Below, one piece after another: positions 7,260 through 60,791 of a DNA stretch of 64,000 bases. The notes beneath the pieces are model-generated. The model was given only the letters and a program-made list of their open reading frames with translations, did no database searches and was not told the DNA's origin. The DNA lies in NCBI GenBank assembly GCA_026014705.1, contig JAOZHU010000035.1, positions 99,446 through 163,445 of the forward strand, written 5' to 3'. The DNA comes from Candidatus Bathyarchaeota archaeon. Lineage in GTDB: Archaea > Thermoproteota > Bathyarchaeia > Bathyarchaeales > Bathycorpusculaceae. The first letter of the stretch is position 1. The number at the start of each line of letters is the position of its first letter. The translations under genes were made by a program, and so were the position numbers.

Positions 7260-7314
7260 TCAGAAAACTCAGCTAGAACGAACATAGCCCCTGCCCACTG
7301 AAATCGCACCCACG

Positions 7315-7520: not shown

Positions 7521-7560
7521 AAAACTATAAAAACTATATAAAAGGGGGCTATAGTTTTCC
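7521..7560. repeat. dispersed intergenic G-run element, copy A
   Basis: AAAACTATAAAAACTATATAAAAGGGGGCTATAGTTTTCC; shares TATAAA-like tract + GGGGG + CTATAG + T-tract + CC with copies B-D. Confidence 0.55.
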
Positions 7561-7580
7561 CATGCAATAGAACTCAAAAA

Positions 7581-8609: not shown

Positions 8610-8635
8610 CAGAATTCACCAGAAAAGAAAGGCTG

Positions 8636-9433
8636 CTAAGCCTTTCCAGCTTTGATTTGCTCGAACAAGTCTTCAGCTTCGTTAGGCGTGTAATTCTCAT
8701 GAATAATCGCGCGTATAGCCTGTATCGCAGCCACTGGATGCTCAGTCTGCCAAATATTCCTGCCTAAATTCACGCCAACGGCGCCTTTCTGCATGCCGTC
8801 ATAAACGAAATCAAACACTTCACGCTGCGTGTCCACTTTGGGACCGCCAGCAATCACCACAGGCACAGGACAGCCATCCACGACTTTTTCAAACTTTTCA
8901 GCACAATAATACGTCTTAACTACTCTAGCGCCAATTTCAGCAGCCACGCGACAGCATAAAGCAAGATAACGCGCTTCACGCTTTTCTAATTCCCTGCCAA
9001 CCGCCGTAACCGCCATAACAGGCACACCATAATCCTCACAAGCATCCACGAGCTTTGCCAAATTGCTCAAGCTCTGGTGCTCATACTTGCTGCCCACAAA
9101 CACAGACATGGAAACAGCCATAGCGTTCAACCGCAGAATCTCCTGAACCGAAGTCACCAAGTTCTCATTGGCTAAATCCTCACCCACTACCGTTGCTGCA
9201 CCAGAAACTCTCAGAATAATCGGTTTCGGAATCGCTGGATCAACACAGTTCCTAAGCACACCACGCGTGAGCATTATAGCATCCGCATAAGGAATCAACG
9301 GTTTAATGGTTTCGCCTGGCTTCTCAAGCATGTGCGTTGGCCCCTGAAAATATCCGTGATCCACGGGCAAGAAAAGCGCCTTGCCATCAGGCTGAATCAA
9401 CCTGGATAGACGATTCTTCATTCCCCAATCCAT
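8636..9433 (-). CDS. class I DhnA/LsrF-type aldolase family protein
   Basis: 265-aa ORF; FLPVDHGYFQGPTHMLEKP, RVVKTYYCAEKFEKVVDGCPVPVVIAGGPK, GAVGVNLGRNIWQ. Confidence 0.85.
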   Translation of the reverse strand: MDWGMKNRLSRLIQPDGKALFLPVDHGYFQGPTHMLEKPGETIKPLIPYADAIMLTRGVLRNCVDPAIPKPIILRVSGAATVVGEDLANENLVTSVQEILRLNAMAVSMSVFVGSKYEHQSLSNLAKLVDACEDYGVPVMAVTAVGRELEKREARYLALCCRVAAEIGARVVKTYYCAEKFEKVVDGCPVPVVIAGGPKVDTQREVFDFVYDGMQKGAVGVNLGRNIWQTEHPVAAIQAIRAIIHENYTPNEAEDLFEQIKAGKA

Positions 9434-9437
9434 AATA

Positions 9438-9662
9438 TCACATCTCCTCGAAACGTTTGGGCTTTAATATTAAATAACCTTTCTCCATCAGCCAATGGTG
9501 AAACTGCCAAGTGGTGAACCTGCAAGCGATGCTGCACGTTTGCCTAACTCGCTCAAACTCTTCAGGTTTATCCTTCAGCGTGTTTAACTGCATTTGAACT
9601 GGGCATTTCACGTCATTGCAGAACTCCCTGCGCTTGTACTCCACAAATCCTTCAATGGACAT
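9438..9662 (-). CDS. small cysteine-containing conserved protein in aldolase/ADH operon
   Basis: 74-aa ORF; CNDVKC and CSIAC pairs plus FHHW; start of the same-strand cluster 7581-9662. Confidence 0.7.
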   Translation of the reverse strand: MSIEGFVEYKRREFCNDVKCPVQMQLNTLKDKPEEFERVRQTCSIACRFTTWQFHHWLMEKGYLILKPKRFEEM

Positions 9663-9756
9663 CGCTCATCGTGTGCTACTGCACCCAACAGTGCTTATAA
9701 GTATTATTTTGCCGCCTGAACGCATGGATGCCTTAAAGTAAAGGAACCCCATTAAT

Positions 9757-10398
9757 TTGCATATGACGAAACTGTATCTTCTAGGCGGAGAAAGCATAGT
9801 CAAAAGAAACGCAAAAGACATCAACGCAACCGCGTTCCAAGATGCAGGTGGAGCACCATCCGTTCTCGTAATTCCATGGGCAAGAGCATCATTTGACAAA
9901 ACCTACAAACGCCGAAAAAGACTATTTGACTACTTTAGAAATCTCGGCGCAAGCAACATAGACTTCGCAGACTATTCAGAAACGCCAGAAGAAATCGCCC
10001 TGAAAATCCAAACCTCTGACTTAATATATCTAACAGGTGGACTCACTACCGTTTTGCTCGAACGTCTAAAAAACAAAGGGGTCGACACGATGCTACGCAC
10101 CTGCAATAACGTGATAGTCGGCAGAAGCGCAGGTGCCTTGGCACTGTGCAAACACGGAATACTTATCAACAAAGACACCCAAGAGACAAAACTCGTAGCA
10201 GGTCTCAGACTGGTTGAATCAACCGTCAGAGTCCACTACAAACTCTCAGAAGACCCAACGTTGCGAAAACTGTCTGAAAGAGTAAAAATCTACGCAATAC
10301 CTGAACGCTCAGCGATCATCCATGACAACGGCGCATTATCGTTCATGGGAAACATCCACGTTTTCCAAAACGGAGAAAAAACTGCCGCGAAGCATTAA
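9757..10398 (+). CDS. peptidase S51 / dipeptidase E-like (type 1 glutamine amidotransferase fold)
   Basis: 213-aa ORF; IYLTGGLTTVLLERLKN and NVIVGRSAGALALCKHG nucleophile elbow. Confidence 0.85.
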   Translation: MHMTKLYLLGGESIVKRNAKDINATAFQDAGGAPSVLVIPWARASFDKTYKRRKRLFDYFRNLGASNIDFADYSETPEEIALKIQTSDLIYLTGGLTTVLLERLKNKGVDTMLRTCNNVIVGRSAGALALCKHGILINKDTQETKLVAGLRLVESTVRVHYKLSEDPTLRKLSERVKIYAIPERSAIIHDNGALSFMGNIHVFQNGEKTAAKH

Positions 10399-10405
10399 GA
10401 AACTG

Positions 10406-11170
10406 CTAGGAAAAGAACTCTCGCACATAAGCTCGAGTTTTCTGAATGTAAGGTGTAAGCAAAACCATCAACGCTGTGCCGATTGTGGACAGCACTATAA
10501 TGTCTCCAAAAATCCAGCCAAAGAAAACAGTTGGAAAAATGTCCACAGGTATTTCGCCGAAAACCGCAAGTGTACCTACGCCAAAAACTCCTGAAACCAA
10601 ACTAGCTACAAAAACGCCAAAAGCCAACCATGCAACCCAAACTCTTCGATTTTCGAAGACCGTTTGCACCACTAAAACCGCGATTGCCACCATGAAAGTT
10701 ATAAAAAACACTTCTGTCAAAGTCAGCACTGCAGCTACAGCTGAAATAACCATGTCCACTAACAGAAGCGCCGTCAACCCATACGTCACCTTTGGCTGTC
10801 TCAGCCTATAATCAAGCCCAATTTTGAGTTTTCTATAAACCACCAACGGAACAAAGCCCTCAAAGAAATCCGCCAGAGCCCAAACAAGCACAAACGGTAG
10901 CGAATAACCAAAATAGAAACCCATGAAAACGCAACTGATGTAACCCGCTATGCTTCCCCAAACCCCGAACCAAAGAGCTAATGGCACGTAAACTGCAGCT
11001 GCAATGTACAATCCAGAAACACCTGGCGCTGGCGGAACTGGCGCAGCAACAACAGCCCAAATAGCAAGAAAAGTGCACACGACCGTTGAAAGTGCACAAA
11101 CAAGCGGCTGCCTCCAAGTAACACCCTTGCTGTGCCCTTTTCCATCAACTTGTGACATATGGACTCTCAT
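10406..11170 (-). CDS. multi-pass membrane protein, ECF-transporter S-component-like
   Basis: 254-aa ORF with ~6 hydrophobic segments; LYIAAAVYVPLALWFGVWGSIAGYISCVFMGFYFGYSLPFVLVWALADFFEGFVP pattern. Confidence 0.65.
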   Translation of the reverse strand: MRVHMSQVDGKGHSKGVTWRQPLVCALSTVVCTFLAIWAVVAAPVPPAPGVSGLYIAAAVYVPLALWFGVWGSIAGYISCVFMGFYFGYSLPFVLVWALADFFEGFVPLVVYRKLKIGLDYRLRQPKVTYGLTALLLVDMVISAVAAVLTLTEVFFITFMVAIAVLVVQTVFENRRVWVAWLAFGVFVASLVSGVFGVGTLAVFGEIPVDIFPTVFFGWIFGDIIVLSTIGTALMVLLTPYIQKTRAYVREFFS

Positions 11171-11268
11171 TTTGTTGAGCGTTTAAATATAAAACTTGCG
11201 ACAGAGTCAAATTGAGAAAGCGGAAAAGCACATAAAAAATGCTTATTGGCTTTCCGAAAGCGACTTCA

Positions 11269-12237
11269 TCAAAGCTGCAATGTGCCCATTACCCGAAGTT
11301 TTGCACCTTCCAAATAAGCCAAAACCGCCGTGTCGCCAGAACGATAAACAAGCTCCTTTTCCAAAGCCAAAGTCACCAGCGGTTTGCGCCAGTCACCCTC
11401 ATCGCTTACCTCTTCAACCTTGCCATTGAGAAACTGCATCCAATGCCCAATATGCAGCACCATTCCTGCCTTTATTTGCGTAGACCAGTACTTAACAAGG
11501 GACACACGTGCCTTGAGCAGTTTCGACGCTTTGACTGCCGCATCATTTGTTAACACTGCACCTCTGTCAACGTCACCTACTTCAACGTTCTTAAGCGCCA
11601 AGCCCACCCTATCGCCCGCATATGCAAAATCAAACTCGTCGTCATGCTTCTGAATAGACCGAATCTGCGTTGTCTTCGCTGCAGGAAGCACATTCATCAC
11701 GCCGTGTTTCTGGATGACGCCCTCTGTTACCACACCTAAAACCACGGTTCCCACACCTTTCACGTTGAACGCGTGATCCACAGTCACTGTTCCAGAAGGG
11801 GTACCACCATCCAGCGATGCAGAAAATTTGGATTGCGCCGCTTCAGCTAGAAGCGCCTCTTTCAGCAGAGTTGAGTTGTCAACGGCAAACTCGTACTTCT
11901 CTAAAATAGTGCCCTTAACAAGCTGCTCAACTTTTTCACGAGACACATAATTCCGAAGAACAAAGTAGCCACTTTCTATCCCACAGCATTGAAGCATCAC
12001 AAGCGATTCACCTAAAGTGGAATTCAACTCGTCCACAACAACTATGGCTTTCTTGGCAACCGAACAAGCGAAGAACAACGGCGCCAACCGCTCAGGGTAA
12101 CGTGCAGGTTCAACGAATGTTATGGTATCTTCGCTTTTCTTCAGGTTATAAAGTGTAATGTCTGTTGAAGTTCCCTTCTTGCCTAAACCACTGGAATACC
12201 CAGCTGCACCGATAACAGCCACCATTAAATTGCCCAT
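11269..12237 (-). CDS. EF-Tu/SelB-like protein with degenerate GTPase domain
   Basis: 322-aa ORF; domain II-like DHAFNVKGVGTVVLGVVTEGVIQKHGVMNVLPAAKTTQIRSIQKHDDEFDFAYAGDRVGLALKNV but no P-loop GHxDxGKT, DxxG or NKxD motifs. Confidence 0.8.
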   Translation of the reverse strand: MGNLMVAVIGAAGYSSGLGKKGTSTDITLYNLKKSEDTITFVEPARYPERLAPLFFACSVAKKAIVVVDELNSTLGESLVMLQCCGIESGYFVLRNYVSREKVEQLVKGTILEKYEFAVDNSTLLKEALLAEAAQSKFSASLDGGTPSGTVTVDHAFNVKGVGTVVLGVVTEGVIQKHGVMNVLPAAKTTQIRSIQKHDDEFDFAYAGDRVGLALKNVEVGDVDRGAVLTNDAAVKASKLLKARVSLVKYWSTQIKAGMVLHIGHWMQFLNGKVEEVSDEGDWRKPLVTLALEKELVYRSGDTAVLAYLEGAKLRVMGTLQL

Positions 12238-13410: not shown

Positions 13411-14766
13411 ATGAAAAAGCGGACACTGCACATAGGACTCGATGATACTGACTCGACGAAGAGAGGCTGCACCACATATGTCGCTGCACTACTTGTAGAA
13501 CAACTAGAGGAGATAGGCGCGAGTTTTCTGGATTATCCCAACCTGATTAGACTTAATCCAAACGTACCGTGGAAAACAAGAGGCAACGGTGCTCTATGTT
13601 TGAGAATAGAGCACGACGAAAAACTCACAAGCCGCATCAAAGAAGCAACAATAAACATGGTAGAAGAACAAGCTGATTTCGAAGCAAAGGGCACAGACCC
13701 CGGAATAGTGTTTTTTGACAAGCAAACGATTCCTAAAGAGATTACGATTTTCGCTAAGAAAGCAACAACAGGCATCGTGACTCTGAAGGAAGCCCTGAGA
13801 CTCATAAACAAGTTCAAAGGAGAAGCATTAGGCTTTAACACTTACAGAGGCATAATTGGCGCTTTAGCCGCAATCGGTGAAACCCTCCAAGAGGACTACA
13901 CATATGAACTAATAGCGTATCGAGCAGCAGATAACTGTGGTTCAAAAAGAAAAGTTGACGAAGACTCAATTTTTCAAATGGATGCGCTGACGAAACCTTA
14001 CACGTTTAATAACATAGACACAGAAAAACGCAGACTCATCATCACACCAAGAGGACCTGACCCTATTCTTTTCGGGGTCAGGGGTGAAAACCCCCACATT
14101 GTAAAAGAAGCCTTCACGATGATTAAGCCGTTAGAACCCGTGGAGCGCTGGGTAATTTTCCGTTCAAATCAGGGCACTGATGCGCATCTTAAGCGAGTGC
14201 CTGCGTTGAACCAGCTAAAGCCATATAGTTCAATTATTGCTAAAGGTGTGGTTTCTCAAAATCCGTGGATTGTGCCTTTGCGGCATGTTATATTTCCAAT
14301 CAGAGACGAGAGTGGGAAGGTGGACTGCGCAGCTTATGAACCAACAGGTGTTCTCCGCAAAGTGGCAATGAAGCTTGTTGTGGGCGACAGCGTTGAAGTA
14401 TATGGTGCTGTGCGCAAGTCATCGGCGAGTAAGCGTTTAACTGTGAACCTTGAAAAAATTCGTGTTATTGGCTTGGCTCCAAAAATTGTTTATAATAATC
14501 CTTTGTGCGCGAAATGCGGTAGACGTTTGAAGTCTATGGGTAAAGCGCAAGGTTTTCGATGTGAAAAATGTGGCTCAAGATACAGTGGTTTGGCGAAGGT
14601 TGCTGTGGCTGTGGAGCGTGATTTAAAAACAGGGTTGTATGTGACGTCAACTAGGTCTCAGCGGCATTTGACTAAGCCGCTTAGGCGTTATGGATTGGAA
14701 AAAAGCGGTTGGACATCGGAAAAATTGATTGATGAGTGGCATTCATTTCAGGTGGAACTCATGTGA
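13411..14766 (+). CDS. tiaS: tRNA(Ile2) 2-agmatinylcytidine synthetase
   Basis: MKKRTLHIGLDDTDSTKRGCTTYVAALL N-terminus; OB-fold region and C-terminal CAKCGRRLKS...CEKCG zinc ribbon; start moved from the ORF-track 13387. Confidence 0.93.
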   Translation: MKKRTLHIGLDDTDSTKRGCTTYVAALLVEQLEEIGASFLDYPNLIRLNPNVPWKTRGNGALCLRIEHDEKLTSRIKEATINMVEEQADFEAKGTDPGIVFFDKQTIPKEITIFAKKATTGIVTLKEALRLINKFKGEALGFNTYRGIIGALAAIGETLQEDYTYELIAYRAADNCGSKRKVDEDSIFQMDALTKPYTFNNIDTEKRRLIITPRGPDPILFGVRGENPHIVKEAFTMIKPLEPVERWVIFRSNQGTDAHLKRVPALNQLKPYSSIIAKGVVSQNPWIVPLRHVIFPIRDESGKVDCAAYEPTGVLRKVAMKLVVGDSVEVYGAVRKSSASKRLTVNLEKIRVIGLAPKIVYNNPLCAKCGRRLKSMGKAQGFRCEKCGSRYSGLAKVAVAVERDLKTGLYVTSTRSQRHLTKPLRRYGLEKSGWTSEKLIDEWHSFQVELM

Positions 14767-14820
14767 CTGCGCATATGCGCAAAAGGGTTTTAAATTAAGT
14801 CTGCATTAAAACAGCTACCA

Positions 14821-15144
14821 GTGAGGAAGAAGCAGATGAGTGAAATACTGTCTCCCATTGTTTTTCAGCTTGGGCTAGGTGCTGTTGGCGGCTTCATCGT
14901 GGGTTTCGCGCTTAAGAAATTGGCTAAACTCTTCATTGTCATAATAGGCATATTCGTTGTTGCACTGCTCTATTTGGGCACAAGCGGAGTGATAAGCATA
15001 AATTTTGAAGCCTTATGGAGCACCATAGGTGGTTGGCTTGGCGGTGCTGCTCAAGCAGCAGCGTGGCTTGTCGGCTTAATCTCGCTTTTGCCGTTCATTG
15101 GCAGTTTCGCAGTGGGCTTTTTGCTCGGGTTGAAGATGGGGTAG
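14821..15144 (+). CDS. FUN14 family membrane protein
   Basis: 107-aa ORF; GLGAVGGFIVGFALKKLAKLFIVIIGIFVVALLYLGTSGVISINFEAL. Confidence 0.8.
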   Translation: MRKKQMSEILSPIVFQLGLGAVGGFIVGFALKKLAKLFIVIIGIFVVALLYLGTSGVISINFEALWSTIGGWLGGAAQAAAWLVGLISLLPFIGSFAVGFLLGLKMG

Positions 15145-15213
15145 AAATTCTTTAAATCCATGTAGTTCGTAAACCCTCAGTAAACCGCGATGGCAAACGG
15201 AGAGATTTGAGAG

Positions 15214-18012
15214 TTGAAGCGATTTCCAGCAGAAGAATATGCGCTTCCCTTCTTCAAAGAGGAGGGTTTCGTGAGGAAACTCTGCCCACGATGCGGAGAA
15301 TATTACTGGACACAGAATCCGAAGCAGGAGACATGTGGAGAATCCACATCAGACGAGTGTGCTTGTTACTCGTTTCTTGGTGATTCACCTGCGAAAAGGA
15401 GCTACAGTCTTCCAGAAATGCGGGAAGCTTTCCTTTCCTTCTTCGAAAAACATGGGCATACCCGTGTCAAGCCTTATCCTGTTGTGGCGCGGTGGCGGGC
15501 TGATATTTATTTGACACATGCAAGCATAATTGATTTTCAACCTTACGTTACAGAAGGTATTGCTCCTCCACCTGCTAATCCGCTTGTGATAGCTCAGCCT
15601 TGCATTAGGTTGGTGGATATTGCGAATACTGGACCAACGTTTGGTAGGCACTTGACTATTTTTGAGATGGGTGGGCATCACGCATTCAATTATCCTGACC
15701 GTGAAGTGTACTGGAAGGATCAGACGGTGCGGTATCACCACGAGTTTGTCACTGACGTGTTGGGCGTGAAGTCTGAGGATGTTACGTACAAGGAGGATGT
15801 TTGGGTTGGCGGCGGGAACGCTGGACCAGATGTGGAATGCATAATCGGCGGCTTGGAGGTTGGTACGCTTGTTTTTATGCAGTATAAGGTGGTTAATGAC
15901 GAGTTTGTCAAGTTGCCTATACGCACGGTGGATACAGGTTACGGTTTAGACCGTTTTGCGTGGCTTTCACAAGGGGCGCCAAGCTGTTTCCATGCTGTGT
16001 ACGGCGGTTTGCTGGACAAGATTTTCGACATGGCTGGAGTAACGAATGTCGACGGTGAACTATTGTTGCGTGTGGCTCGATATTCGGGCTTGGTGAGCGT
16101 GGATAAGACTGCGAACAGGTTTAATGCTAGGCGACGAGTGGCTGAACTAGTTGATGTTCCGCTGGATGTGTTGGATAAGGTGCTTGAGCCCATTGAGAAC
16201 GCGTTTGCAGTGGCTGATCACACGAAGTGTTTGAGTTTTATTCTTTCTGAGGGAGTGGTACCTTCGAATATTCATGAGGGGTATCTGGCGCGGTTGATGT
16301 TCCGCAGGGTTTACCGTTTGTTGCGAATGTTGGATATGCCTGAACGGCTTTATGACATAATGGACTTGCAAGTTGACTATTGGGGTAAGGATTACCCGCA
16401 CATCAAGACCATGCGAAACGAAATTATGGAGATGCTCAAAGTTGAAGAAGCAAAGTTCGAAGACACGATAAAGCGAGGTGAAGGGATGGTGAAGCGGATA
16501 GCTGCTGAGCTTAAGGCAAAGCGCGTTAGCCGCATGTCTGATGAGACCTTGTCTGAATTGTATGATTCGCAGGGTCTTCCGCCTGAAATAGTTAAGCAAG
16601 CCGCTGAGGCTGAGGACGTGCAAGTGGAGATTCCTGAGAATTTCTACGCGTTAATTGCGAAGCGGCATATGCAAGCAACTAAGCCTGTAGAGGAGGAAGC
16701 GGAAGTTGAACAAGCTCTTGAGGCGGCTGTGGATGGGTTACAGCCGACTGAGCAACTGTACTATGTGGACCAGTATATGCGGGAGTTTGAAGCGAAAGTG
16801 CTCAAAGTGGTGAACGGCGATTATGTTGTTCTGGACAGGACATGTTTTTATCCTGAAGGTGGTGGGCAACCTGCTGATCATGGTTTTTTGGCGTTTGATG
16901 GAGCGAAGGTGGAGGTTGTGGGTGTTCAGAAGGTTGGCAGAGTAATTGTGCATAGGCTTCACGGTTCTTTTGCGCCCAAGGAATGCGCGACTGTTAGGGG
17001 TATTATCGATTGGGAGAAGCGTTATGCGTTGATGAAGGCGCATACGGCTACGCATTTGATTAATGGTGCTGCACGTCGTGTTTTAGGTGAGCATGTGTGG
17101 CAGCATGGCACGCAGAAAGGTTTGGAGTGTTCGCGGTTGGATATTTCGCATTATCGTCGTTTGTCGTCTGAGGAGGTGCATCGGATAGAGGTGTTAGCGA
17201 ATGAGGCTGTTTTGGCGAATTTGCGGGTTGAGACTGCGTGGCTGTCGCGGAATGAGGCGGAGAGCCGTTATGGTTTCAGGCTTTATCAGGGTGGTGCTGT
17301 TCCGGGTAAGGAGATTCGGGTGGTGAAGACGGGTGATTGGGATGTTGAAGCTTGTGCGGGGACGCATTTAAGCAGCACGGGTGAAATTGGATTTATTAAG
17401 ATTGTTTATACTGAGCGTGTTCAGGATGGTGTGGAGCGGTTAGCCTATGCTGTTGGTCTTGAGGCGTTGAAGGCTGTGCAGCGGCAGGAGCGGTTGTTGT
17501 GGCGGGTTTCCGACGCGTTGAATGCGCCTGTAGAGAAACTGGATAAGACTGCTGAGAAAATGGTTAAGGATTTGAAGGATGCTAATGTGGAGAGGCGTAG
17601 GTTAATCAAAGAGTTGGCTGCTAAGGAGAGCGCTGGTTTTGGTGCAGTTGCGGCTTCTGAAGCCGCTGTGGAGATTGGCGGAGTGAGGCTTGTTAGGCGT
17701 GATTTCGGGGAGATGATTGATGTGAATCGGATGGTGGAGACTGCGAGTAAGGTAATTGAGCGCGATGAGGCTGCAGTTGCGGTGTTTTATGGTGCAGATG
17801 GGAAAACTGCTAGAGTGCTGGTTATGGCTGGGAAAGCTGCGGTTGCGAAGGGCGTTAACGCTGGTGAAGTCGTTAGAATGGTTTCGCCTGTGATTGGCGG
17901 TGGAGGCGGTGGAAGGGTGAATTTTGCTCAGGGAGGGGGAACACAGCCAGAGAAACTTCAGGAAGCTATTGCGAGGGCTGAAGATGTTATAAGAAAACAG
18001 CTGCAACATTGA
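15214..18012 (+). CDS. alaS: alanyl-tRNA synthetase, archaeal type
   Basis: 932-aa ORF; MREAFLSFFEKHGHTRVKPYPVVARWR, editing-domain HTATH, CAGTH, DHHA1-type C-terminus. Confidence 0.97.
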   Translation: MKRFPAEEYALPFFKEEGFVRKLCPRCGEYYWTQNPKQETCGESTSDECACYSFLGDSPAKRSYSLPEMREAFLSFFEKHGHTRVKPYPVVARWRADIYLTHASIIDFQPYVTEGIAPPPANPLVIAQPCIRLVDIANTGPTFGRHLTIFEMGGHHAFNYPDREVYWKDQTVRYHHEFVTDVLGVKSEDVTYKEDVWVGGGNAGPDVECIIGGLEVGTLVFMQYKVVNDEFVKLPIRTVDTGYGLDRFAWLSQGAPSCFHAVYGGLLDKIFDMAGVTNVDGELLLRVARYSGLVSVDKTANRFNARRRVAELVDVPLDVLDKVLEPIENAFAVADHTKCLSFILSEGVVPSNIHEGYLARLMFRRVYRLLRMLDMPERLYDIMDLQVDYWGKDYPHIKTMRNEIMEMLKVEEAKFEDTIKRGEGMVKRIAAELKAKRVSRMSDETLSELYDSQGLPPEIVKQAAEAEDVQVEIPENFYALIAKRHMQATKPVEEEAEVEQALEAAVDGLQPTEQLYYVDQYMREFEAKVLKVVNGDYVVLDRTCFYPEGGGQPADHGFLAFDGAKVEVVGVQKVGRVIVHRLHGSFAPKECATVRGIIDWEKRYALMKAHTATHLINGAARRVLGEHVWQHGTQKGLECSRLDISHYRRLSSEEVHRIEVLANEAVLANLRVETAWLSRNEAESRYGFRLYQGGAVPGKEIRVVKTGDWDVEACAGTHLSSTGEIGFIKIVYTERVQDGVERLAYAVGLEALKAVQRQERLLWRVSDALNAPVEKLDKTAEKMVKDLKDANVERRRLIKELAAKESAGFGAVAASEAAVEIGGVRLVRRDFGEMIDVNRMVETASKVIERDEAAVAVFYGADGKTARVLVMAGKAAVAKGVNAGEVVRMVSPVIGGGGGGRVNFAQGGGTQPEKLQEAIARAEDVIRKQLQH

Positions 18013-18070
18013 TGCTGCATAGGTGCCGTGTAGAAAGCTTTGCTGTTGTAGACGTTTCGAGCTAACGCTT

Positions 18071-18109
18071 GGAGGAGTCTATAATCCCCCTTATTTAAAG
18101 GAACTATTC
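18071..18109. repeat. dispersed intergenic G-run element, copy B (reverse orientation)
   Basis: Reverse complement GAATAGTTCCTTTAAATAAGGGGGATTATAGACTCCTCC; near-identical first 17 nt to copy C at 43719. Confidence 0.65.
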
Positions 18110-41806: not shown

Positions 41807-43336
41807 TTATTTGCTAAGGTTAGCTGCTTTGCAGCACCTTCTATATAGCAGTAGAGATATAGCCGAACAAACAATCGCAACTATGGCAATTGGTATTATC
41901 GTCATAAAGGCAGAAGGTCGTATGGTAAAGCTAACAGTAGTTGATACACCGATGTTGTGGTATAAATCACTTGCATATACGGTAATTTGATGTGTTCCTA
42001 TCTCCAGATTTGTAAGTGTGATATTTCCATTTATTGTGACGTTTTTTTGCCCATCCAAGCTATAACTAACCCAAAGAGGCTGCTTATTCGTCAAAATATT
42101 CAACGCAACATCACTACTGTAGTAAACAGTGTCTGAGGGACTAATCAATTGAACATTAGGGGCAACTGCCCAATGCGGTATTAAGTTAGGGATAGCCGAC
42201 AGGTCAACTGCATGCATCAAAGGGTAGCGGTCTAACCGATTAGCATCTATTACGTAAGGTGTATCGCCTATGCCATCAGCGTTTGAATCTACACCTTGAT
42301 AGTCACTCCAGTAGTTGCCTACTTTGTTGTTGTCGAAATAATCCTGTTGAGAAGAGAACAATGTGTTAACTTGGTAGCGGTTATTCTCCATGTTGTTATT
42401 GTAAAAGACGCTTACGTTACCATCGGGGTTTAGTAGAGAACCTGTTGTGTCAACTCCCCACAGGTTGTTTGCGATGTTGTTACCATAATAGGTATTGTTT
42501 TTGCTTGGTTGAAGAGCTATCCCGCAATGGGTTATTTGGTTTTTTATAACTGTGTTGTTTGAACCGCTAACCCATAATCCTATTGATAGATTGTCTATGA
42601 GATTATTACTAAAGATGTTATTGTCGCCGTATAATGGGAATATTGCATATGGAGCGTTAGAGACTGTATTGTCAGTAATTAGGCAATTGTTTGCTTGAAT
42701 GGAAGGCGCTCCGTTTGTAATATTATTCAAAGAGAATATCGTATATTCCCCAGTAAGACCAACACCGCCTGTTATAAAATTCTCTGATATTCTTGAATAG
42801 TTGGCTGAAAACCCAGTGTTTGAAAAATAATTGCGTGCAACATACAGATAAGAACCTGTCATAGTAAATGTCGTTTCTATTTTGTTAGCTGTTACTTGTG
42901 TGCCATTTCCATTTATTGCTACGTTGCCGCCATTTGACCTTATTGTCAGCCCGGAAAGAGCAAAGTTTGTTGCATTTACAGTCATGGCAGGGTCGTAGAA
43001 AGTGGCTGTGTGACCTAAGATATCGATTACTACCTCATGGCTTGGAGATGCGAGATTAATGATAGTAGTTTCATATCCTTCGCCTATTACTGAGAGGCTC
43101 TTGTTTGTGTAAAAAGCATTTTCTTGGTAGTTTCCGCTTCTAACAGCGATGGTGTCTCCATCCGAGGCATTTCCTATCGCTGAGGCAATCGTTGGGTAAT
43201 CATCTGGAACAACTAGCGTTTTAGCTTGGGCTTTAACTGGTGAAGATTGAAAGACAGCTATGGAAGCAAGGTACACCAATGCCATCAGTACCGCTAAGAC
43301 CTTGCCTGTTTTCCACATAACCCATTCTTTGGTCAA
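41807..43336 (-). CDS. NosD-like parallel beta-helix surface protein with C-terminal TM
   Basis: 509-aa ORF; signal peptide, LVVPDDYPTIASAIGNASDGDTIAVRSGNYQE, N-rich right-handed helix coils, GNYWSDYQGVDSNADGIGDTPYVIDANRLDRYPL. Confidence 0.88.
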   Translation of the reverse strand: MTKEWVMWKTGKVLAVLMALVYLASIAVFQSSPVKAQAKTLVVPDDYPTIASAIGNASDGDTIAVRSGNYQENAFYTNKSLSVIGEGYETTIINLASPSHEVVIDILGHTATFYDPAMTVNATNFALSGLTIRSNGGNVAINGNGTQVTANKIETTFTMTGSYLYVARNYFSNTGFSANYSRISENFITGGVGLTGEYTIFSLNNITNGAPSIQANNCLITDNTVSNAPYAIFPLYGDNNIFSNNLIDNLSIGLWVSGSNNTVIKNQITHCGIALQPSKNNTYYGNNIANNLWGVDTTGSLLNPDGNVSVFYNNNMENNRYQVNTLFSSQQDYFDNNKVGNYWSDYQGVDSNADGIGDTPYVIDANRLDRYPLMHAVDLSAIPNLIPHWAVAPNVQLISPSDTVYYSSDVALNILTNKQPLWVSYSLDGQKNVTINGNITLTNLEIGTHQITVYASDLYHNIGVSTTVSFTIRPSAFMTIIPIAIVAIVCSAISLLLYRRCCKAANLSK

Positions 43337-43519: not shown

Positions 43520-43630
43520 TGCAGGGGGCGGGATTTGAACCCACGAACCTCTGCAGGATAGGCTCCTGAAGCATCCGCGTCCCTTTTTTAGAGGGACTCT
43601 ACGCCTTTGGCCATGCTCGGCGACCCCTGC
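43520..43630 (-). tRNA. tRNA-Leu(CAG) with predicted ~26-nt non-canonical intron in the anticodon stem
   Basis: Acceptor GCAGGGG/CCCCTGC, D-arm GCCGAGCATGGCCAAAGGC, T-arm GTGGG-TTCAAAT-CCCGC, V-arm TCCTGCAGAGGTTC. Removing AGTCCCTCTAAAAAAGGGACGCGGAT gives TAGGC-TTCAGGA-GCCTA and an 85-nt mature Leu tRNA. Confidence 0.85.
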
Positions 43631-43718
43631 ACTGAAACACCTTTCGCAGTTGTTGAAAATAACTCTTACTGATAAATACATTGCCACCATGTCATCACAC
43701 CAATTTCTAAGCAGCATC

Positions 43719-43756
43719 GAATAGTTCCTTTAAATAGGGGGGCTATAGTTTTTTCC
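43719..43756. repeat. dispersed intergenic G-run element, copy C
   Basis: GAATAGTTCCTTTAAATAGGGGGGCTATAGTTTTTTCC. Confidence 0.65.
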
Positions 43757-43933
43757 TGCGCGCTAGCGTCAACACCAAGATTTACCCGCAACATAGAAAA
43801 CACATAAGATAAGAAACATGCAGAAAAAACGCTAGCAAGCTCAACCCTGCTTTATGAAGTCTATGAAAACCTAAAACGTGATATAGCAAATAGGCATAAA
43901 GCTACATGTAACCTGCACAAGGGTGAAGCGCAA

Positions 43934-44179
43934 TTGGAACTAGAAATCGTGGTAATAATCTGCAACACACTCGTAATCTTCGCAACGTTCCTAGCCACAC
44001 TCTACCGAATAAAAATCGAACGCGACCAAATACACACTGTAAAACAAGACGTAAAAGCCAAAGAATGCCTAGCAGCACTACGCAAATACGTGCAAACAGA
44101 ACGCACCTCGCTCCTGAACATGGACAAAGAAGAACTAAAAAGCTTCCTAAACTATTTAGAACAATTAGGCGAATGCTAA
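43934..44179 (+). CDS. small single-TM, charged-helix protein
   Basis: 81-aa ORF, TTG start; N-terminal hydrophobic helix then a charged helix with KEECLAALRKY-like pattern. Confidence 0.5.
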   Translation: MELEIVVIICNTLVIFATFLATLYRIKIERDQIHTVKQDVKAKECLAALRKYVQTERTSLLNMDKEELKSFLNYLEQLGEC

Positions 44180-44262
44180 ACCCGCCACCACCAAAACCTC
44201 AATACGCATCAAACTAACACCCAAAAACCTCTTATTTCAGGAGCACCTAAAAAAAGCTAAAG

Positions 44263-46413
44263 TTGAGAACGAAAGTGAGAACGAAAACCCAAACACTTTC
44301 GGCAGCAATTCTAACACTACTGTTAGCCACCATCTTAACGCTAACTATCAACATTCAACCCGTAAAATCCACAAGCGCAATCACCATAAACACAGACGGC
44401 ACAATCGAACCCCCCACAACCCAAATCCAACGCAACGGCGACACCTATGTGCTAATTGATAACATCACAACCACCATCACAATACGCAGAAGCAACATAA
44501 TATTCAACGGAAACGGCTGCACCATCCAAGGTCAAAGAAGCGGAAGCGCAATAACCATAGAAAACGCCAACACCGTCACGATCCAAAACACCACAATCCA
44601 AGATTTCACCTCCGCAATACGTCTAACCAACACCTACAACAACACAATCACCCGCAACAACATAATCAACAACGACAACGGCATAACCCTTTCAAGCGCA
44701 TCCAACAACATCATCACGGAGAACAACATAACAAACAGCTACCTCAGAGGCATCGAACTCTACAGCGCCTCAGACGCCAATACAATCGCACTCAACAACT
44801 TCACAAAAAACTTCCGAACCATGTTCATCTCCTCATCATCCCACAACAACATCTCTGAAAACAACATCACAGGCAGCGATTACGATGGCATATGCCTCTA
44901 CTGGGCAACAAACAACACAGTCCAAAACAACAACATAACAGACTGCAACTACGATGGCATATGCCTCTACTGGGCAACAAACAACACAATCGCAGATAAC
45001 AACATGGCAGACAACACTCACAACATCGCCCTTTACGGCTCATCCCAAAACACGGTAACAAGCAACACGTTAACAAACAGCAGCGTGAGCATAGACATCT
45101 ACAGCACTTCAGAACACAACACCATTACCAGCAACACCATATTCAACAATGACCAAGGCATCAACATCTACAGCACTACACTTAACACAGTCACAGAAAA
45201 CAACATAACTCACAACAACCGCGGCATCCACCTCTACACCGCCACAAACAACCTCATCAACAAAAACACACTAACAAACAACACATACAACATCTACCTA
45301 TCAGGCTCACACAACAACACCCTCTCAGAAAACACAATAACCCAAAGCCGCCATGCAGGCATATACCTCTACGACTTATCAGAATTCAACACCATTATAC
45401 AAAACAACATTACAGACAACAAAAACGTCGGCATCTACCTCTACTGGTCCCCCAACAACACCATCGCAACCAACACAATAACAGACAACGCATATGACGG
45501 CATCTACTTTTACTGGTCAAACAACAACACCATCACGAAAAACGCCATAGCACGCAACTTCAGAGGCATCTTCTTCTGGTCATCCCACGGCAACACCATA
45601 TCCGAAAACACAAACACACACAACTACGACGGCATCTGCGTCCACGGCGCCGACAACATCATGACAGCAAATACGCTAACAAACAACGACTACGGCATAG
45701 CTCTCCATGGCTCAGGAACACTAATCGAAGCCAACACCATAGCAAACAACACCCACGGCATCAGCCTCTACGACTCAGCCCTCAACAAAATAATCCACAA
45801 CAACCTCATCAACAACACCAACCAAATCCGCCTATCACAATCAACCAGCGCTTGGAACGGCACTTACCCGTCAGGAGGAAACTACTGGAGCAACTACAAC
45901 GGCACAGACGCAGAAAGCGACGCCATCGGCGACACCGCCTACGTCATTGACCAGAACAACCAAGATTACCATCCGCTTACAGCACCCATCTACGCATTCA
46001 GCACCGCCACGATAAACGGAAACTACCAACTCGTTCAAGTAATCAGCAACTCTACAGTTGCAAGTTTCCACTTTGACTCGTCTGAAGGACAGCTTTTGCG
46101 TTTCACTGTGACTGGCACGGATGGTGCGATAGGTTTCTGCAGAGTCATCATTCCGAAAACACTCATGGCATCTTCCAACAGTTGGACAGTAAAAGTGAAC
46201 GACCAAGCAGTAGAGTCAAATGTTCTGTGGGACAACGAGAACACGTACCTCTACTTCACCTATACCCACAGCACAAAAATGATAGAAATAAGCAGCACAA
46301 TCATACCTGAACCATCAACACTCTGGCTACTAATCCTAATCGTGCTCATCGCAATTGCAGCAGCCATAGCTCCAGTAATATATAAACTCAGAAAACCCAA
46401 GAAAACGGCTTAA
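44263..46413 (+). CDS. NosD-like parallel beta-helix, Asn-rich surface protein with C-terminal TM
   Basis: 716-aa ORF; signal peptide, dozens of ~22-24-aa NNTITxNxIxxNxxGIxLYxSxxN coils, GNYWSNYNGTDAESDAIGDTAYVID, LIAIAAAIAPVIYKLRK anchor. Confidence 0.9.
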   Translation: MRTKVRTKTQTLSAAILTLLLATILTLTINIQPVKSTSAITINTDGTIEPPTTQIQRNGDTYVLIDNITTTITIRRSNIIFNGNGCTIQGQRSGSAITIENANTVTIQNTTIQDFTSAIRLTNTYNNTITRNNIINNDNGITLSSASNNIITENNITNSYLRGIELYSASDANTIALNNFTKNFRTMFISSSSHNNISENNITGSDYDGICLYWATNNTVQNNNITDCNYDGICLYWATNNTIADNNMADNTHNIALYGSSQNTVTSNTLTNSSVSIDIYSTSEHNTITSNTIFNNDQGINIYSTTLNTVTENNITHNNRGIHLYTATNNLINKNTLTNNTYNIYLSGSHNNTLSENTITQSRHAGIYLYDLSEFNTIIQNNITDNKNVGIYLYWSPNNTIATNTITDNAYDGIYFYWSNNNTITKNAIARNFRGIFFWSSHGNTISENTNTHNYDGICVHGADNIMTANTLTNNDYGIALHGSGTLIEANTIANNTHGISLYDSALNKIIHNNLINNTNQIRLSQSTSAWNGTYPSGGNYWSNYNGTDAESDAIGDTAYVIDQNNQDYHPLTAPIYAFSTATINGNYQLVQVISNSTVASFHFDSSEGQLLRFTVTGTDGAIGFCRVIIPKTLMASSNSWTVKVNDQAVESNVLWDNENTYLYFTYTHSTKMIEISSTIIPEPSTLWLLILIVLIAIAAAIAPVIYKLRKPKKTA
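44881..44988 (+). repeat. internal direct repeat: 39 identical nt at 69-nt spacing
   Basis: TACGATGGCATATGCCTCTACTGGGCAACAAACAACACA at 44881-44919 and 44950-44988. Confidence 0.9.
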
Positions 46414-46437
46414 CCACCACTGCCGCATGAGTATTGG

Positions 46438-47139
46438 CTACTTTTTCCGAAAACGCGGTATGAATGCTGGAACCTTTGCTTTGTAGCTACGGAATTCTTC
46501 ACCGAACTGCTCTTCCATATCCTTATCTTCCGATTTAGCAAGCCGATAATACAGAAAAGCCAGAATAGGCCACAACGCAAGCGTGATAATCGTTAGCCAC
46601 TGAACATTCAAGCCGAAAGTGATGAGCAGAAACCCCGTGTACTGCGGATGACGCATATAAGCGTAAAGCCCCGAAGTCACAAGCTTGCCCTCTTTGCGAG
46701 CCTTGTGAATTTGTCTCCAGCCAAAAACAATCAAAAGAATCCCAATTAACATGATAACCTTTGAAGCTGGAAAAATGAACGAGTTAAAAAGATAATAAAA
46801 CTGGGATTCACCCATCACGCCTACCAACAGAAATTCAAGCGACAAGAATTTATCGTATCCAAGTGTTCCAGCCAATACGTACATCGTCAACGGAAAACCA
46901 TACATTTCCGCGTACAATGCAACTATGAAAGCAGCATATACGCTACTGGGCAACCTTGTGTTCTTCTTTCTAATAGGAATGAATAGTATGAAAAGCGATA
47001 AAAACACGACGTTTATGGTTATGAGGACCCATTTGTCCCATGTGCCATAGCTGAAGCCTGTGAAAGTGGAGTAATAGAGGAACACAGAAGCCAAGGCTGT
47101 CACAATGATAAACAAAGCTATTTCCTTGAATTTCCCCAT
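46438..47139 (-). CDS. isoprenylcysteine carboxyl methyltransferase / PEMT-family membrane methyltransferase
   Basis: 233-aa ORF; LVTSGLYAYMRHPQYTGFLLITFGLNVQW and C-terminal EEQFGEEFRSYKAKVPAFIPRF. Confidence 0.85.
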   Translation of the reverse strand: MGKFKEIALFIIVTALASVFLYYSTFTGFSYGTWDKWVLITINVVFLSLFILFIPIRKKNTRLPSSVYAAFIVALYAEMYGFPLTMYVLAGTLGYDKFLSLEFLLVGVMGESQFYYLFNSFIFPASKVIMLIGILLIVFGWRQIHKARKEGKLVTSGLYAYMRHPQYTGFLLITFGLNVQWLTIITLALWPILAFLYYRLAKSEDKDMEEQFGEEFRSYKAKVPAFIPRFRKK

Positions 47140-47271
47140 TTACCTTTTCTCCAGCTTATCATTAAAAAGAAAACACTGCCTAAATTTCTCCTTGTGACTG
47201 AGCAGATATAAACCTTGTGTCTTCCGCTCACCCGCAATGTCCGCTTTGACAACCGAAATGCCTCCTAAATT

Positions 47272-47730
47272 TTACTCTGGTGTTGAGCGCTGTTTCGAAT
47301 TTGCATTTGCAGAACGACATTTTGATTTTCGGATTTGACGCAACCGCGTAACAAAGTAGCCGAGAAACGATGGCATAAAAACAATTGTCAAGACTACCGG
47401 AAATATCTTTATGTATGAAATAATCTGTGCGTAACCAATGCCGACTACGGCGAGCAGAAAAACCGCGAAACTGTCATGATAAGTGAAACTTGCCGATGAC
47501 AAGTATCCGAGACTACCCAGCCACATTCCTAAAAAGAGAAAAGATAAGATTTCCGGGACGTGATGCCATGCCCAACCGCGACTAGCTAACGCCTGAATCG
47601 GAAGCACAGGGTTGCCTGCCCAAACCAGAATCATCGCAGAGAAGTAACCTAAAACAACAAGATAGAGCCACGGTTTATCAAGAGCTAAGAAACGAATCAA
47701 GAACCAAGTTATAGGCCCTGTCTTCCTCAC
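47272..47730 (-). CDS. hypothetical membrane protein
   Basis: 152-aa ORF with several TM segments. Confidence 0.55.
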   Translation of the reverse strand: MRKTGPITWFLIRFLALDKPWLYLVVLGYFSAMILVWAGNPVLPIQALASRGWAWHHVPEILSFLFLGMWLGSLGYLSSASFTYHDSFAVFLLAVVGIGYAQIISYIKIFPVVLTIVFMPSFLGYFVTRLRQIRKSKCRSANANSKQRSTPE

Positions 47731-54695: not shown

Positions 54696-55187
54696 ATGAG
54701 CAAAAAAGAAAAAGACGAACCGCAAGAAACACAGCAAAACGAAGCAGTGAGCACTGCAGAAGAGGAAGAAACTGATGCAGAACTTGAGGAAATACTAGCT
54801 GAAGAAACCGCTGAGGAAAGACCTGAAGAGAAAACTGCATCAGGTGAAGAAAAAGAGGAGAAACCTCCTTCCAAGAAAAAAGGCGAAGAGGAAGAAGACA
54901 TTGTTGAAGAAAGAACCTACACGATTCCATTGGGTAAGGCGCTGATTAGACCACCGAAGAAACGAGCGCCGAGAGCCATGCACATGATTCGCGAGTTCAT
55001 AACTAAGCACATGAAACTCAATATGCCTGCTGAGGAAGAGGAAGAAAAAGAACTGCCTAAACTTGTAATCAGCAAAGAAGTAAACGAGAAAGTCTGGAGC
55101 GAAGGGATAGAGAAGCCGCCGAGGAAAATCCGTGTGCGCGCAGCTAAAGACAAAGATGGCAACGTCACGGTTTACTTGGCCGAGTAG
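54696..55187 (+). CDS. rpl31e: 50S ribosomal protein L31e with long acidic N-terminal extension
   Basis: C-terminal YTIPLGKALIRPPKKRAPRAMHMIREFITKHMKL...LVISKEVNEKVWSEGIEKPPRKIRVRAAKDKDGNVTVYLAE; N-terminal ~70 residues E/K-rich. Confidence 0.92.
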   Translation: MSKKEKDEPQETQQNEAVSTAEEEETDAELEEILAEETAEERPEEKTASGEEKEEKPPSKKKGEEEEDIVEERTYTIPLGKALIRPPKKRAPRAMHMIREFITKHMKLNMPAEEEEEKELPKLVISKEVNEKVWSEGIEKPPRKIRVRAAKDKDGNVTVYLAE

Positions 55188-55241
55188 AAATGACCTAACA
55201 CTAATTTTTTGCTATATTGTTTTCTCATTAAACTGCTGTAG

Positions 55242-55586
55242 TTATGTTGATAGTTGTTCTTGCGTTGGACTTGATGGTGTCCAGTTGCAAAGGTTTTGTG
55301 CGGCACATCGGTTGGAAGCTTGAGGTTTGCGAACTTTCTGCGTTATTAACCGTTTTTGCTGGAACTCGTAGCCGCATTCGCATTTGAATCCCACAACCTC
55401 GTTGTTCTTTGTTAGCAGGCTGTGAAGGCGTGTTGCTTTACAGTTTGTTAATTGCTTGTGCATTCGCCATGTCAACGCTAGGTCATCTAAGGTTAACGGT
55501 TGGAGCGTTTTTGCTTTGAAGAGGTACCAGAGGCAGTAAGCTGCGAAAGCTAGCCAAATTCCCAGCGCTAGGAGTTCTAGCATCAT
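55242..55586 (-). CDS. single-TM protein with C-terminal Cys-rich (zinc-binding?) domain
   Basis: 114-aa ORF; LLALGIWLAFAAYCLWYLF TM; CKATRLHSLLTKNNEVVGFKCECGYEFQQK. Confidence 0.6.
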   Translation of the reverse strand: MMLELLALGIWLAFAAYCLWYLFKAKTLQPLTLDDLALTWRMHKQLTNCKATRLHSLLTKNNEVVGFKCECGYEFQQKRLITQKVRKPQASNRCAAQNLCNWTPSSPTQEQLST

Positions 55587-55837
55587 TTTTGTTCAGCCTT
55601 TTTCAGTTGGAAAGTTTATTGTGGATTCTTTGGCTTAGGGTATTTAGCTTCTGTGAAGAGGCGATAGCTACTGGTAATCAGGCATATTCCGAATCAGAGC
55701 TAGATGATGCGGTGAGGACTGCGTGATTTTTTCCAGTAGTTCTTTGCGGCGGAACCTCAATCTGCACCACAAAATAAAAAAGGAAGCGTGGGCACATTTT
55801 GCCGTTAATAGCCCGTTTAGTTAAAGGAGAATAGTTC

Positions 55838-56518
55838 GTGGCAGTTTACTTATCTAGCATCGTTGGTAGCGCAAGCATAGGTGTGTACTCGCTTGTTACT
55901 GAAAAAATAGTTTTGGTTCCAGCAATGTTTCCCTTGGAGAAGGCTGAGCGTATGGCTGAGTGGCTTAAAGTGAAGCTTGTACATACTTCCATTGGCGGTT
56001 CCGTGTTGGCTGGCGCGTTAGCTTCTGCGAATTCGCATGGAATCTTGCTTCCTCACTTTATCCGCGGGGAAGAGTTCACGTGTGTCCGTTCATTGTTTGA
56101 AGGCAACATCGCAGTGATGGAAACTAAGAAGACGGCTTACGGGAATTTGGTTTTGGCAAATGATTATGGTGCGCTTGTTGATCCGCGTCTCAAGGAAACG
56201 CAGATACGGCAGATTGCCGACACGTTGGGTGTGGAGGCTGTTCCTGGTGAAATTGCGGGGTTGCCGTATGTTGGCGCTTTGGCGGTGGCTACGAACAAAG
56301 GGGTTTTGGCTCATCCTTTGTTGAAGGATGAGGAGCGTAAGGTTTTGGAAAGTGTGTTTAAGGTGCCTGTGGATGTGGGTACCGTGAACTGCGGTTTGCC
56401 TTATGTTGGCACGGGTTTAATTGCGAATTCGCATGCGGCTGTTGCTGGTTCTTTGACAACTGGACCCGAGATGTTTATAATTGGGAATGCATTGGATGTT
56501 GTGCAGGAAGCTGAATGA
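55838..56518 (+). CDS. eif6: translation initiation factor aIF6
   Basis: 226-aa ORF; five pseudo-repeats: GSVLAGALASANSHGILLPHF, NDYGALVDPRL, ATNKGVLAHPLL, NSHAAVAGSLTTGPE. Confidence 0.96.
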   Translation: MAVYLSSIVGSASIGVYSLVTEKIVLVPAMFPLEKAERMAEWLKVKLVHTSIGGSVLAGALASANSHGILLPHFIRGEEFTCVRSLFEGNIAVMETKKTAYGNLVLANDYGALVDPRLKETQIRQIADTLGVEAVPGEIAGLPYVGALAVATNKGVLAHPLLKDEERKVLESVFKVPVDVGTVNCGLPYVGTGLIANSHAAVAGSLTTGPEMFIIGNALDVVQEAE

Positions 56519-56519
56519 G

Positions 56520-56747
56520 ATGAAGGTTTTCAGGGTAACAGGCGAAATTCAGAAGCCGAAGTTGAATACGCCGTTTCAGAAGGAAGTGTTAGCGGATAAG
56601 TCTGAGCATGCCGTGGAGAAGGTGTATTCTGAAATTGGCAGTAAACACCGTGTGAAACGGTTTTATATGAAGATTTTGAAGGTTGAAGAGATTCCCGCTG
56701 AGGAAATTGAGAATCCTGTTCTGAAGAAGATTGTTACTGGGGAATAA
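56520..56747 (+). CDS. rpl18ae: 50S ribosomal protein L18Ae (LX)
   Basis: MKVFRVTGEIQKPKLNTPFQKEVLADKSEHAVEKVYSEIGSKHRVKRFYMKILKVEEI. Confidence 0.93.
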   Translation: MKVFRVTGEIQKPKLNTPFQKEVLADKSEHAVEKVYSEIGSKHRVKRFYMKILKVEEIPAEEIENPVLKKIVTGE

Positions 56748-56750
56748 GCG

Positions 56751-57203
56751 TTGGCTAGCCGAAGCAGGGAAGAAGAGGAACTTCGAAGGCTTAGCGTTCA
56801 GCTGCGTCTTATGGAGCAGACGGCTGAAACTTTGCAGTCACGTATCGGCATGTTGAATGCGGCGATAACGGATTTGACTTATGCGAATATGACGCTTGAT
56901 GGCGTGGAGAAAGAGAAGGAAAACTCGGAGTTGCTGGTGCCCATTGGTGGAAGTTCCTACGTGCGAGTGAAACTTGCTGAGCCTGACAAAGTGGTTGTAG
57001 GCTTAGGTGCAGGTGTTTCCGTTGAGAAACCGCTATCAGAGGCTAAAGCGTTGCTCAAGGAACGCTTAGACGAACTGACGAAAAGCATGCAGGCAGCGCA
57101 GCAGCAGTTCACGCAGGTTGCTGAGCGGATAAACGCGGATAGGAATAGGCTGGAGAGTTTGCTTGCTGCTGTGAGGCAGGGGAAAACTTCGGGCGATGTT
57201 TGA
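56751..57203 (+). CDS. pfdA: prefoldin subunit alpha
   Basis: 150-aa coiled-coil ORF; LLVPIGGSSYVRVKLAEPDKVVVGLGAGVSVEKPLSEAKALLKERLDEL. Confidence 0.93.
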   Translation: MASRSREEEELRRLSVQLRLMEQTAETLQSRIGMLNAAITDLTYANMTLDGVEKEKENSELLVPIGGSSYVRVKLAEPDKVVVGLGAGVSVEKPLSEAKALLKERLDELTKSMQAAQQQFTQVAERINADRNRLESLLAAVRQGKTSGDV

Positions 57204-58101
57204 GAAACTGAAATCAGGTTTCAAAGGGCTAGTCAGCAAGGTTACTACAATTGAACTGAAAGCTGAAAACTTGAAGCCTATCTTATCAGAGTTCAAAATG
57301 AGTTTAGCAGAGAATGATGTTGCTTTCCCTGTGGCAGACCGAATCTGCGACGAACTGGAAAAGCGCTTGGTAGGCGTGCAAGTTAAGCGTTTAGAGGACC
57401 GCAAGAAAATCGTGTATGATAACTTGCGGCAAGTGCTTTTGGAAGTTATGCTTACAAGCAACAGCATTGACTTGCTGAAAAGGGTTGAAGAGAAACGCAA
57501 GAGGAACGAGCCGTTCACTTTGCTTTTTGTGGGCATAAATGGCACAGGCAAGACCACAACCATAGCGAAGGTTGCTCGGTTTCTGCGTGAGAAGGGTTAT
57601 TCTGTTGTGTTGGCGGGAAGTGACACTTATCGTGCGGGTTCCATTGAGCAGTTGGAGGAGCATGCGAAGCGGTTGGGTATGCGGATTATCAAGCATAAGT
57701 ATGGTGCTGATCCTGCAGCGGTGGCTTATGACGCGATTAGCCATGCGAAGGCGCATGGTGTTAATGTGGTTTTGATTGATACAGCAGGCAGAATGCAGAC
57801 GAACCAGAATTTGATGAATGAGCTTGCGAAGGTGAAACGGGTTGTGGCGCCTGATTTGACGGTTTTGACTGTGGATTCGCTTATTGGGAACGATGCGGTA
57901 CAGCAGGCTGAGGAGTTTCATTCATGCATTGGTGTGGATGCGACGATTTTGACCAAGGTGGATGCAGACGTGAAGGGTGGCTCTGCTTTGAGCGTTACTT
58001 ATGTGACTCAGAAACCTATTCTGTTTATTGGTGTAGGTCAGGCGTATGAGGATTTGGAGTTGTTTAATCCGGAGAAATTCGTGAACATGATATTGCGGTA
58101 G
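57196..58101 (+). CDS. ftsY: signal recognition particle receptor FtsY
   Basis: 301-aa ORF; GINGTGKTTTIAKVARFLREKGYSVVLAGSDTYRAGSIEQLEEHA, DTAGRMQTNQNLMNEL, TKVDADVKGGSALSV. Confidence 0.96.
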   Translation: MFEKLKSGFKGLVSKVTTIELKAENLKPILSEFKMSLAENDVAFPVADRICDELEKRLVGVQVKRLEDRKKIVYDNLRQVLLEVMLTSNSIDLLKRVEEKRKRNEPFTLLFVGINGTGKTTTIAKVARFLREKGYSVVLAGSDTYRAGSIEQLEEHAKRLGMRIIKHKYGADPAAVAYDAISHAKAHGVNVVLIDTAGRMQTNQNLMNELAKVKRVVAPDLTVLTVDSLIGNDAVQQAEEFHSCIGVDATILTKVDADVKGGSALSVTYVTQKPILFIGVGQAYEDLELFNPEKFVNMILR

Positions 58102-58303
58102 GCGCTTTTTGCTTTTTGTTGTTTGCTTGCAGTGTTTTGTTCGAGATTGCGTGGAAGTGTTCTCTGGAGGGTACGTTGATGTGTGGTTGGAAACGGGTGG
58201 TTGCTGTTTCAAGTGTTGTGCCTGCGATGCTCAGATGGTTTTGTAACAGTGAACCTGTTGATTTTGGCCTGTTTAGCTCAGGGTAGGGGTCTGAACGAAT
58301 GCG

Positions 58304-58342
58304 TGGAAAAATCTATAGCCCCCCTATTTGAACTATAAATAG
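58304..58342. repeat. dispersed intergenic G-run element, copy D (reverse orientation)
   Basis: Reverse complement CTATTTATAGTTCAAATAGGGGGGCTATAGATTTTTCC. Confidence 0.65.
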
Positions 58343-60677: not shown

Positions 60678-60757
60678 AACAAAAGGAGAAAACAGTATAG
60701 ATGCGTAAATATTTTGGCGCCGCCGAAAGGAAACGCTACTCCAGAGGGACATTTGTA

Positions 60758-60791
60758 CTGAAAATATCCCCCCTTTCTTTAGTCTAAATAG
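60758..60791. repeat. possible divergent copy E of the intergenic G-run element (reverse orientation)
   Basis: Reverse complement CTATTTAGACTAAAGAAAGGGGGGATATTTTCAG. Confidence 0.35.

Follow-up and report, generated by a model that had tools for sequence, protein, structure and literature searches.

The window analysed here, a stretch of 64,000 nucleotides, comes from contig C24 in a Candidatus Bathyarchaeota genome of 1.99 Mb in 44 contigs, and carries four copies (A to D) of a short intergenic element (Table 1). Copy B has a 1-base insertion ahead of TATAG. Copy C is flanked by divergent, repeat-rich genes of NosD-like beta-helix type (41807-43336 on the minus strand and 44263-46413 on the plus strand), the second of which contains about a dozen repeats of 66-69 bases. 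About 90 bp from copy C, positions 43523-43632 of the minus strand look like a leucine-type tRNA gene with an intron in the anticodon region, which was called neither by ARAGORN (bacterial setting) nor by Rfam.

Table 1 Element copies, core parts and skew tracts in the window; tract ends are estimated from cumulative skew
Feature	Position	Strand	Profile score	Description
Possible degenerate copy	7304-7347	+	2.6	CTATAGTTTTCTCCAA; 221 bp upstream of A; below cut-off, weak
Copy A	7525-7568	+	41.6	Points right; left end of segment A-B; plus-strand A/C skew starts here
Skew tract inside A	7569-11783	+		A+C-rich though most genes there are on the minus strand; skew 0.15-0.26 per kb
Skew tract inside B	14191-18064	-		A+C-rich; covers alaS (15214-18012, +) antisense
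Copy B	18065-18109	-	20.9	Points left; right end of segment A-B; between convergent gene ends
Copy C	43719-43762	+	35.0	Points right; exact GGGGGGCTATAG
Copy C, TATA-box-like part	43729-43736	+		TTTAAATA; core positions 0-7; TWTWWAWA in 67 strong copies
Copy C, G-run and CTATAG	43737-43748	+		Defined from 67 copies
Copy C, T-tract, CC and predicted start region	43749-43758	+		Position 28 is T here
Skew tract inside C	43763-47522	+		Strongest in the window, 0.43-0.45 over 2 kb
Skew tract inside D	55162-58298	-		A+C-rich; covers ftsY (57196-58101, +) antisense
Copy D	58299-58342	-	46.9	Points left; between convergent gene ends

A scan with a 44-bp profile, using a score of at least 10 as the cut-off and the reversed sequence as the control, recovered copies A to D at the positions and with the common core reported in the first-pass annotation of this DNA. 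A fifth, weaker copy claimed there (E; 60748-60791, minus strand) was rejected because it scores 1.9, well under the cut-off, and has no strand skew on its inner side. Base-by-base examination covered about 46% of the genome, in stretches picked around elements, and these 909 kb contain 78 profile sites, compared with 0 in the reversed controls. All but one of the sites (77 of 78) are intergenic, whereas 79% of the scanned sequence is called as coding by a simple codon model that can fail where DNA is strongly skewed; the sole exception, C37:40474, starts within a predicted ORF. Over the whole genome, TWTAWATARGGGGGNTATAG gave 62 matches when up to two mismatches were allowed, and its reversed form gave 0. 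Within the family, copies are numerous in the present genome (G000), G024, G017 and G012, and the same pattern gave none in G002, G007, G014, G022 and G023. The clear excess over both controls and the uneven distribution with respect to coding sequence uphold the earlier description of a dispersed element lying outside genes. In 1.41 Mb taken from three genomes, the cut-off of 10 is reached by 131 sites (reversed controls, 0). In an exact-pattern scan of GTDB genomes, 70 of the 76 matching contigs belong to Candidatus Bathyarchaeota and the other 6 are scattered bacterial contigs with one chance-like match each; the element is almost confined to Bathyarchaeia. Variant cores occur in genomes G001 and G003, of related genera (GGGGGGTCTAG; GGGGGTTAAAA), and the part comprising the G-run and TATA therefore seems older than CTATAG.

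The core, as defined from 67 strong copies, consists of CTATTTATAG or a similar AT-rich decamer, TWTWWAWA, A or G, GGGGG, CTATAG, an A/T-rich and then T-rich stretch, CC, a purine and, further downstream, roughly ACGCGC or AAGCRC. G occurs in at least 96% of these copies at four or five positions, and the TATA of CTATAG is near-invariant. TWTWWAWA (positions 0-7) is compatible with binding by TBP, and the A/T variation stays within what a TATA box tolerates. C is found at position 27 in 73% of copies and a purine at position 28 in 77%; position 28 is 24-25 bases away from the centre of the TATA box, where an archaeal start would fall, and the pyrimidine-purine step is thus at the spacing of an initiator (22-27 bases downstream). 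The core therefore reads as an archaeal promoter with a predicted start, with the addition of an invariant GGGGG-CTATAG block that archaeal core promoters lack. The elements are, however, placed independently of gene starts. The downstream gene is on the same strand in 23 cases and on the opposite strand in 15 in this genome, and in 41 and 31 cases, respectively, on the contigs recovered in the collection scan (~5 chance hits included). With neighbouring genes in either direction, the element does not behave as a gene promoter, and we rejected that reading. The near-random orientation around all copies agrees with the first-pass view that no ordinary mRNA promoter is expected at B and D, which do sit between convergent gene ends.

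Beyond the core of about 45 bp, most copies are unrelated. Nine or ten of them have a further ~80 bp upstream in common (~125 bp in total, with 80-91% identity), from which it follows that the family once spread by copying, and at a few loci cores occur in tandem, ~52 bp apart. The first-pass annotation listed as possible roles an ncRNA promoter, a terminator or processing site, a site for a chromatin or replication protein, and the remnant of a small mobile element. Its view of a dispersed, intergenic and functional-looking element is supported; a miniature transposon of recent origin finds no support, as most copies are alike over ~45 bp only, vary by the rules of a TATA box and have no Rfam match (the window gave only a tRNA and five element loci gave no credible match).

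The main point, which the first-pass annotation missed, is that the elements form facing pairs and bound tracts of strand skew. Neighbouring sites occur in plus-then-minus order in 26 of 42 cases, compared with 10.6 expected under shuffling (P < 1e-4); all 26 facing pairs are 2.1-14.6 kb apart, and no divergent neighbours lie closer together than 14 kb. The segments between facing elements hold ordinary, usually housekeeping, genes. In the window, A and B delimit one such segment. The pairing of C with D is doubtful, given that the skew changes sign at 0.79 of the interval and that in genome G041 the segment corresponding by orthology to the D side starts near window position 53 kb. Sequence similarity within pairs is slightly over chance (P ~ 0.014), and in two pairs the ends are long inverted repeats that are nearly identical: C33:70489 and C33:74304 form a perfect 90-bp inverted repeat that includes the flanks, and C37:40474 and C37:47538 share 73 bp at 97%. 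These near-identical ends suggest that the two ends of one pair may exchange sequence.

Inward of an element, the strand on which the element reads is rich in A (~0.32) and C (~0.30) relative to G (0.175) and T (0.20), irrespective of gene direction, and inner-minus-outer skew is positive at 68 of 73 sites. The A+C content of fourfold sites is 0.53 far from elements; in inner genes it is 0.73 when read along the element and 0.29 when read against it. Within pairs the sign flips at 0.51 +/- 0.14 of the pair length, mostly within genes, and at unpaired elements the skew fades by ~3-4 kb. Outside the element, the skew declines within a few hundred bases, beyond which a weak skew of opposite sign extends for several kilobases; the sign change sits 0.2-0.7 kb outside the element and not at it, and inner skew (~0.2) is about twice the outer skew (~0.08). 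The steepest rises in skew fall within 800 bp of an element in 24 of 34 cases (13% by chance), compared with 1 of 75 falls. Strong rises without an element include those at C1:3755, C18:7510 and C36:12074. Facing pairs and skew of the same sign are also present in G024 and G041, which belong to other genera. The skew is weaker in fen_992 and is absent altogether at the five sites of FK_Sedi.

Comparison between genera shows that gene adjacency is lost at elements: it is kept across 0 of 22 elements and across 12 of 42 element-free gaps of at least 200 bases (P = 0.005), in a small sample and with large intergenic gaps being less conserved anyway. Of 35 orthologue comparisons for inner genes, 18 show an inward-pointing element retained at the corresponding gene end, against a background of ~10% of all gene ends; the counts are small, and there is overlap between comparisons because each genome pair was compared both ways. 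Copy D marks an end of ftsY that also carries an element in G041, and the start of moeA has one in three genera. The one-gene segment C10:7755-9807 is found in G024 at C62:5912-8001, and the segment C43:7693-13041 recurs there with the same genes at C31:185-5579; both ends are marked in each case and the neighbours differ.

Paired elements, with a strand bias running inward from each, indicate that some process acts on bounded segments from both ends. Our leading proposal, a tentative one, is that an element is the end of a 2-15-kb segment that would be treated as a unit by a process working on the DNA inwards from its two ends. What appears to explain the data best, although we place it short of an even chance, is a recombination or processing boundary at which one strand becomes exposed through 5' resection. 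Free ends or strand breaks would occur at the element or up to ~0.7 kb outside it, and the 5' strand would be resected inwards, leaving a 3' single strand of which the C and A would mutate more; repair would fix these mutations, making the opposite strand A+C-rich. Recombination at segment ends would also account for the rearranged neighbourhoods, and the promoter-like core would be a candidate binding platform, either for TBP/TFB or for a specific protein. The bias amounts to a loss of C and A, inside the ends, from the strand complementary to the element, which fits 5'-to-3' resection that leaves this strand single, and the weaker opposite skew outside is as expected from resection on the other side of the break. 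Cytosine deamination alone would not be expected to mutate A besides C.

In human meiotic breaks, C and A are mutated on the exposed strand over ~2 kb on each side, and at the hotspots the mutation of A has been ascribed to error-prone repair synthesis (PMC7615360). The elements resemble these PRDM9/SPO11 hotspots, which likewise combine a dispersed motif with strand-asymmetric C/A mutation over ~2 kb per side (PMC7615360), in that the asymmetry matches theirs in sign and length and is opposite on the two sides, with A+C to the right of the site, and in that rearrangements are concentrated at the site (the small sample of 0/22 versus 12/42). Unlike the hotspots, they are archaeal, directional and paired, and the asymmetry is centred 0.2-0.7 kb outside the motif. 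This offset counts against breaks and resection, as do the promoter-like core and the skew boundaries at which no element is detectable, and the twofold excess of inner over outer skew would call for a further rule of direction; the resection model accounts neither for the inward preference nor for the offset. Skew is also an indirect sign of single-strand exposure. A promoter-like core may coexist with a process at the DNA level. In a more elaborate version, which we consider unlikely, inward-facing elements would constitute a programmed system, defining host-gene cassettes that would be cut or opened at each end, with resection to the middle followed by recombination, and with shuffled gene order and mirrored asymmetry as the outcome. 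Facing motif pairs that bound domains are also known from the convergent CTCF loop anchors of vertebrates; by contrast, the pairs described here are of kilobase scale and enclose a flip in strand composition.

The main rival is that the elements are strong inward-firing promoters that drive sense and antisense transcripts of 1-5 kb, the skew being a mutational footprint of transcription; we judge this somewhat unlikely. TWTWWAWA, the T-rich region and the C-purine step 24-25 bases from the box centre fit archaeal promoters, for which one published account (PMC8553660) gives a TATA box ~28 nt upstream of the start, and the tracts are finite, at ~3 kb for single elements. The skew, however, begins 0.2-0.7 kb upstream of the predicted start. 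The tracts are almost evenly divided between bases sense (89 kb) and antisense (82 kb) to genes, and their ends do not track gene ends. Fourfold bias changes or reverses along the length of PGK, EF-2, MoeA and alaS, with A+C falling to 0.04-0.31 in alaS, and antisense RNA would have to dominate much of these genes. Thermosome and EF-2 genes, presumed to be highly expressed, are not strongly A+C-rich in the sense direction, and the sign of the skew is opposite to that of the usual transcription bias. The ribosomal-protein operon on contig C3, which runs in a single direction from 8614 to the contig start, was set aside as support for transcription-driven skew once the contig start proved to contain a flip: fourfold A+C is 0.85-0.92 and then 0.08-0.36 further along. 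A flip within one transcript means that expression does not set the bias. No element was found at the start of this operon (C3:1-8700) despite its full mirrored skew, so some boundaries of this kind are without a recognisable core. Selection on translation was rejected, since the shift is alike in all fourfold families and opposite in antisense genes, and the ribosomal-protein operon flips; so was selection against T-runs (read-through), as T5 runs are barely low and runs of C and G are lower still.

Less probable still, and in our view improbable, is that old cassettes of host genes, either mobile or exchangeable, have the elements as their terminal inverted repeats. Like the ends of transposons and MITEs, the elements are dispersed, related copies that face each other at both ends of a unit (26 pairs); the similarity within pairs, the two sets of long near-identical ends and the recurrence of the C43 and C10 segments in G024 among other neighbours would all suit such cassettes. 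Against this, the contents are essential single-copy host genes, and the cores are mostly short, diverged and constrained in the manner of binding sites. The translated proteins of 12 pairs read only as housekeeping types and included no shared transposase or integrase.

Very unlikely is a role in initiating replication or stopping forks, with the skew as ordinary replication asymmetry: the sign does reverse at each element and again between elements, as at origins and termini, but a pair of origins predicts outer arms at least as strong as the inner ones (the observed outer arms are weaker), a fork-stopping version puts initiation mid-segment, inside genes without a motif, no ORB-like site was noticed in the core, and ~80 sites in 2 Mb far exceed the origins known in archaea.

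We know of no prokaryotic chromosome that is divided by paired, inward-facing intergenic elements with mirrored strand asymmetry, and none was found in the open literature (subscription papers being outside the scope of the search). Either cause, breaks or transcription, would be surprising. If breaks with resection are responsible, an archaeal counterpart of the recombination hotspot becomes testable; if transcription is, the antisense promoters that oppose PGK, EF-2 and other essential genes are stronger than the genes' own promoters. The codon use of genes near elements reflects position and not selection, which should serve as a warning. The 16S (C14:5599-7093) and 23S (C1:33249-36270) rRNA genes of this genome are on separate contigs, and an element lies ~0.7 kb downstream of the 16S gene.
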